Positions 24,938-25,115 of a DNA stretch of 64,000 nucleotides are shown piece after piece; the stretch's first letter is position 1; each line of letters opens with the position of its first letter. A model generated the notes under the pieces. That model was not told the DNA's origin. It did not search any database and was given only the letters and a program-made list of their open reading frames with translations. Origin of the DNA: Prochlorococcus sp. MIT 1341 (GTDB lineage Bacteria; Cyanobacteriota; Cyanobacteriia; PCC-6307; Cyanobiaceae). The translations under genes and the position numbers were made by a program. Where the stretch lies: NCBI RefSeq assembly GCF_034092415.1, contig NZ_CP139304.1:186001-250000 (forward strand), in the 5' to 3' direction.

Positions 24938-24979
24938 TCGGGTTCTTAGCCCGAAGGCTAATTCGGGCTAAGAACCCGA
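24938..24979. repeat. perfect 18-bp inverted repeat resembling the tRNA-fMet anticodon arm
   Basis: TCGGGTTCTTAGCCCGAA (24938-24955) and TTCGGGCTAAGAACCCGA (24962-24979) are perfect reverse complements separated by six bases. The right arm plus GGTCGAG reads like the anticodon arm and the following bases of tRNA-fMet (CGGGCTCATAACCCGAAGG) with a changed loop. TGTACACA follows twice (24988-24995 and 25000-25007). There is no T-run, so it is not a typical terminator. A recombinase or replication-protein site is possible. Confidence 0.6.
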
Positions 24980-25115
24980 AGGTCGAGTGTACACAAAACT
25001 GTACACAGACTTTTCGTTAGGAAAAATACTTTCAAGTTATACCTAGGATCTATAAGCTTTCTCCTTTATACAATATCTACCTTCTTTCGGACCTCTATAT
25101 GTAAATATATGCATT

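Follow-up and report, generated by a model that had tools for sequence, protein, structure and literature searches.

An anticodon-arm-like palindrome in a gene-free mini-element at tRNA-fMet of Prochlorococcus as a candidate recombination-silent integrase-binding site

The window, i.e. the whole 64,000-nucleotide stretch of Prochlorococcus sp. MIT 1341 that was analysed, contains an intact tRNA-fMet gene beside an asparaginase-like gene (25263-26411). The three displaced tRNA-fMet 3' halves listed in Table 1 are a tandem series of insertions at this one tRNA. The newest element, 698 bp long and next to the tRNA, is bounded by the intact gene at one end and a near-identical displaced 3' fragment at the other, which is the arrangement of a tRNA-targeted element, and its core is flanked on either side by putative arm-type repeat pairs. 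It has no open reading frame of more than 35 amino acids and hence encodes no integrase of its own. Near the palindrome locus there was no sign of an integrase gene, nor was an integrase for the element found elsewhere in this genome. At the threshold used, the only integrase-family gene of the genome (a housekeeping gene of 388 aa with a PF00589 match) lies far from the locus and was discarded as the source of the activity, as no tRNA, attachment-like repeats or other signs of an element were seen around it. A methyltransferase-like gene at 23614-24362 is split over two overlapping frames (115 and 157 aa) and is possibly frameshifted cargo of the previous element.

The original prediction had placed a perfect 18/18 inverted repeat with a 6-base loop in the newest element segment, about 170 bases from the intact tRNA, and this was borne out: within the 698-bp element, arms at 24938-24955 and 24962-24979 enclose the loop GGCTAA, 166 bp from the end of tRNA-fMet. 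The palindrome is present once in the 1.94-Mb genome. Its right arm and flank, CGGGCTAAGAACCCGAAGGTCG, are identical to tRNA-fMet at 20 of 22 bases, and no tRNA-fMet match with three or fewer mismatches is expected in shuffles. The likeness to the tRNA-fMet anticodon region that had been noted for the right arm therefore holds, but not as a feature of that arm only, as both arms form a complete tRNA-fMet anticodon arm, TCGGG-N7-CCCGA, with an altered 7-nt loop. The arm of the tRNA itself is TCGGG-CTCATAA-CCCGA, and the palindrome has CTAAGAA or, in the other arm, TTCTTAG instead. Such a copy of the anticodon arm with a changed centre is referred to here as a mimic. Two TGTACACA words with a period of 12 begin at 24988 and 25000 as described, and a second pair (24544/24556) had been overlooked.

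Table 1. Features of the tRNA-fMet locus in the window, and positions of repeat pairs and mimics in comparable attachment regions.
Feature	Position	Strand	Remarks
Intact tRNA-fMet (CAT), integration target (attB)	25146..25222	-	3' half brought by the element; ARAGORN, Rfam
Inverted repeat AAAAGCCTGTCT/AGACAGGCTTTT adjoining tRNA 3' end	25118..25142	.	likely tRNA terminator, element-borne
12-bp-period pair TGTACACA x2 beside mimic, P' side	24988..25007	+	putative arm-type sites
Second, inverted core site TCGGG-CTAAGAA-CCCGA	24963..24979	+	followed by tRNA-like flank AGGTCG
First anticodon-arm-like core site TCGGG-TTCTTAG-CCCGA	24938..24954	+	left palindrome arm
12-bp-period repeat pair TATACACC/TATACATA, P side	24544..24563	+	putative arm-type sites; begins 52 and 64 bp from displaced tRNA half
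Displaced tRNA-fMet 3' half	24449..24492	-	crossover end TTATTAG; other boundary of 698-bp element
Older displaced tRNA-fMet 3' half	23027..23071	-	earlier insertion
Core-like site TCGGG-TTCCAA-CCCGA	22868..22883	+	6-nt centre; in older 0.5-kb element (22543-23071)
Oldest recognisable displaced tRNA-fMet 3' half	22510..22543	-	
P-side repeat pair, gene-free elements	window 24544/24556; L074 7190/7202; L077 7604/7616		52/64 bp (L074); 49/61 bp (L077)
Mimic-side repeat pair, gene-free elements	window 24988/25000; L074 7285/7297; L077 7722/7734		
Mimic in phage attP regions, from attP crossover	L109 group -157/-158; L176/L177 -151; L180 -101; L185 -143; L186 -93		L176 is the L142 contig

Among the genomes searched, the exact palindrome is confined to this one, yet it is not without counterparts in other elements at this site, an absence that would have told against the original prediction, since the arrangement recurs in two further genomes. 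The same layout is found in three gene-free elements from two genera, namely the window element, an element of about 340 bp in G002 (L074) with TCGGG-CCTACAA-CCCGAAGGTC plus an inverted copy, and an element of about 370 bp in G004 (L077, another genus) with a single copy, TCGGG-TGACTAA-CCCGATGGTCG, in the tRNA sense. In each of them the mimic lies 155-167 bp from the tRNA 3' end. One 12-bp-period repeat pair is 8-14 bp away from the mimic, and another, which has the same motif, is separated from the crossover by 49-52 bp. The motif is common to both sides within an element and differs between elements (TGTACACA, TGTTGATGA and AGTGTGCCTGG); the second pair of the window is the most diverged, with two mismatches per unit. 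At least two such pairs occurred in 2 of 1000 base-shuffled window elements. These mini-elements look like attachment regions stripped of all else, which would depend on an integrase from elsewhere. The exact palindrome arm returned one Bacillota match in the genome contigs, in a locus where no tRNA was found, and none in the viral contigs, and a one-mismatch match in G245 was rejected, as there is no tRNA nearby. When 400 family genomes were scanned for paired CGGGN7CCCG patterns, true palindromes of this kind appeared only in G000 and G002, and the remaining matches were dismissed because they look like GC-rich chance matches.

As single-stranded DNA, the palindrome folds with -28.6 kcal/mol (z = -8.0), and none of 200 shuffles was equally stable. 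Such a fold would favour a hairpin that acts when the element moves single-stranded, either as a double-stranded core site made by pairing of the two copies or as the mark of an origin, and the centres CTAAGAA (window) and CCTACAA (L074) agree with this, as they differ at three of seven positions and every difference is compensated by the other arm. However, a recent inverted duplication accounts equally well for the matched centres, and L077 and all phage mimics (see below) are single sites without a long hairpin, hence the hairpin is not general. Moreover, the integration junctions are at the tRNA and not at the palindrome, and the element showed no Rep, relaxase or integron integrase, so that we regard a function as single-stranded hairpin as unlikely. 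The "origin-like hairpin" of the original prediction retains some probability, but only the window element and L074, which have two copies, contain a long hairpin.

Similar sites occur at a fixed place in the attP regions of some marine phages, adjoining tyrosine-integrase genes, a co-occurrence that the original prediction had proposed to look for. A pattern scan led to three low-GC viral contigs (L109, L128 and L133) with the mimic GACCTTCGGG-TTAATAG-CCCGA, in which 9 bp separate the mimic from a 12-bp repeat pair and about 112 bp lie between this pair and the attP crossover, after which comes the tRNA 3' half. In L109 and L133, where the contig continues, this half is followed by another repeat pair and the gene for a tyrosine integrase of 401 aa. 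No relatives of this L109-type integrase were found among named phages. In a further viral contig, L142, the mimic is about 150 bp from the attP crossover; its integrase has relatives in 79 viral loci, and upstream of the integrase gene in most of these the 3' half of a tRNA (fMet, elongator Met, Ala or Arg) can be recognised. The mimic of L186 has a 6-nt centre, and L184, L211 and L215 have a weaker candidate at -105. Across 158 kb of fMet-phage loci, mimics with a score of at least 25 are found only at -93 to -158, in eight loci from five lineages, compared with one chance match in the 255 kb of control loci, from relatives in which no fMet attP was detected. None of 300 shuffles reached the scores of the phage mimics, and none of 39 other tRNA arms scored as high in the same attP regions.

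Two unrelated integrases are represented among the mimic-bearing phages, as the L109 integrase has no similarity to the other family (E = 0.41). In the integrase tree, all mimic-bearing members of the L142-type family group together in a single well-supported clade; of its 12 members, L178/L179 and L181 alone are without a mimic of any kind. No mimic is present in most of the fMet attP regions examined (e.g. L143/L197, PSS2, L178 and L203) or in an integrated element of about 65 kb in G192, hence the mimic is optional and integration does not require it. Where attP is for Ala, Arg or elongator Met, no mimic of that tRNA is present, and the mimic is known for fMet only. A compensation by the mimic for a weak left half-site of the attP core was considered and not retained, the trend being weak (one-sided p = 0.03 with the mini-elements; two-sided p = 0.13 without them).

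Several further observations were made in these loci. The G192 element (G192:C1:1141855-1206734) lies between tRNA-fMet, with the integrase adjoining, and a displaced 45-bp tRNA 3' half. L143 (1448-1710; the L197 contig) has a tRNA-fMet attP with 12-bp pairs ACTTGTCAAAAA flanking the core and no mimic, and provides a clean comparison case. In L109 (2225-2265) and L128 (7425-7463), a TATAAT-like box directly precedes the mimic, which is located past the 3' end of a phage ORF. In two closely related phages, L182 and L183 (L298:6806-6828 and L320:4735-4757), TCGGG-CTGGTGA-CCCGAAGGTCG is a perfect mimic that lies about 11.3 kb from attP, between the 3' end of an ORF, which it follows closely, and a promoter-like TTGACA. 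Upstream of attP in L212 and L225, which target tRNA-Ala and tRNA-Arg(cct), tRNA-Arg(acg) arms gave the best control scores, 26 and 25, which may point to a further inverted-repeat site.

The mimics of L109, L128, L142 and L298 are at or just past an ORF 3' end, and together with the stable stems this could indicate an RNA element at the end of an operon, such as a terminator, a 3'-end hairpin or a tRNA-like regulator. We consider this very unlikely, as there is no T-run at the palindrome, just as had been stated, and hence not the GC-rich stem followed by a T-run of an intrinsic terminator; the sole terminator-like site of the region (25126-25138) adjoins the tRNA. Some phage mimics have mismatched stems (TAGGG/CCCGA), and terminators would have no reason to copy 11 tRNA-fMet bases only in tRNA-fMet phages. 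Neither Rfam covariance models nor ARAGORN matched a known structured RNA or tRNA gene at the palindrome, and with its altered loops and an orientation that varies between elements, the proposed tRNA-derived regulatory RNA gained no positive support.

In the eight mimics, 123 of the 128 half-site and right-flank positions carry the tRNA base, compared with 31 of 56 positions in the 7-nt centre (p = 6e-11), and the six flank positions beyond the stem match at 46 of 48 (p = 1e-6), where the p-values are too good and the contrast between stem and centre is inflated, because mimics were picked by their stems and two of them by patterns that include the flank. At position 3 of the centre, the C of the tRNA is found in none of the eight (two of which were selected that way), and none of the mimics found has the centre of the target itself. 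The apparent constraint is on the half-sites and flank, not on the centre. This bears on the idea that the palindrome has no function and is what remains of a tRNA fragment or earlier attachment core after a chance inverted duplication, which would suit a locus littered with tRNA fragments from tandem insertions and a mimic that is optional in phages. Decay should strike stems and centre alike, however, and even in a search that favoured the stems, 96% of stems and flank but 55% of the centre are kept; moreover, five phage lineages, one of them with an unrelated integrase, have the mimic at the fixed position of -93 to -158. A chance remnant is accordingly given little probability.

The core sites of tyrosine integrases consist of two inverted half-sites on either side of a short overlap; the enzymes bind these half-sites and, with their N-terminal domain, arm-type repeats, and strand exchange requires matching overlaps. 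By these general rules, an fMet integrase should bind the mimic but not recombine it, since strand exchange would not be completed at a centre that is mismatched to the tRNA. We therefore favour, with a probability of roughly 55%, the reading that the palindrome, within the attachment region of a mini-element that lacks an integrase, is an attB-like site at which integrase binds but does not recombine. A tyrosine integrase supplied in trans would have inserted the small gene-free element into tRNA-fMet, with the 12-bp-period repeats probably serving as its arm-type sites and the TCGGG/CCCGA half-sites presumably bound by its core-binding and catalytic part. As the centre is unlike that of the tRNA, the bound complex would be unable to finish strand exchange, and the site could keep integrase on the attachment region, where it may aid complex formation or idle the complex until the real target is met. 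In the window element and L074, the site is present twice, the second time inverted, giving rise to the perfect palindrome. The recombinase-recognition or accessory site of the original prediction is thus supported by the similar sites in other gene-free tRNA-fMet elements and at a fixed place in attP. Against a silent binding site count the absence of the mimic from most of the fMet attP regions examined, the failure to find an integrase for the element in this genome, the varying orientation of the mimic relative to the core, the distance of about 445 bp, rather than 93-158, between the window mimic and the displaced half, and the 11.3 kb between mimic and attP in L182/L183. More tentatively, and with somewhat less confidence than in the binding site itself, the mimic of some tRNA-fMet phages and of the mini-elements at that tRNA may be a built-in decoy target, i.e. 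a copy of the target at a fixed distance from the attachment core and with an altered centre that is bound but cannot be recombined. It would act in cis as a brake or an assembly platform for tyrosine-integrase recombination, and the integrases with which it occurs are of two unrelated kinds or more.

Should integrase bind the site and leave it unrecombined, a DNA recombination reaction that is among the best studied would gain a control element, and the site would offer a natural substrate to ask how integrases separate the true target from a near-perfect one. Gene-free tRNA-fMet mini-elements that need an attachment region only would also help to explain how picocyanobacterial islands at this tRNA are rebuilt again and again without a resident integrase.

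The component parts are of known kinds. As in the lambda-type attP of tRNA-targeting tyrosine-integrase phages, a tRNA 3' half lies next to int and direct-repeat pairs flank the core, but the phage loci described here have, 93-158 bp from the crossover, an additional core site that is complete and attB-like except for its mismatched centre. To our knowledge, such an extra core site is no part of the lambda attP layout; a core-like site in an attP arm was not found described in the open-access literature searched, and the same holds for a silent attB-like site at a fixed attP place. With integron attC and the CTX-phage attP, the palindrome shares a hairpin able to fold into a double-stranded tyrosine-recombinase site, but the related sites here have no hairpin, and neither the conserved core-site motifs of attC in the arms nor an integron integrase was seen. 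Tycheposons and the tRNA-Met islands of Prochlorococcus likewise combine insertion at a tRNA-Met gene with displaced 3' fragments and a variable island, and a tRNA-Met plus ansA locus is the putative site of P-SS2 (PMC2784084). Tycheposons, however, span 4-200 kb and carry a tyrosine recombinase (PMC10872708) and cargo, whereas the mini-elements are only 0.3-0.7 kb long and have neither, the 698-bp gene-free element included. Like MITE-like non-autonomous elements, the mini-elements are gene-free and consist only of ends and cis sites for movement in trans, but their ends are tyrosine-integrase attachment sites instead of transposase inverted repeats.
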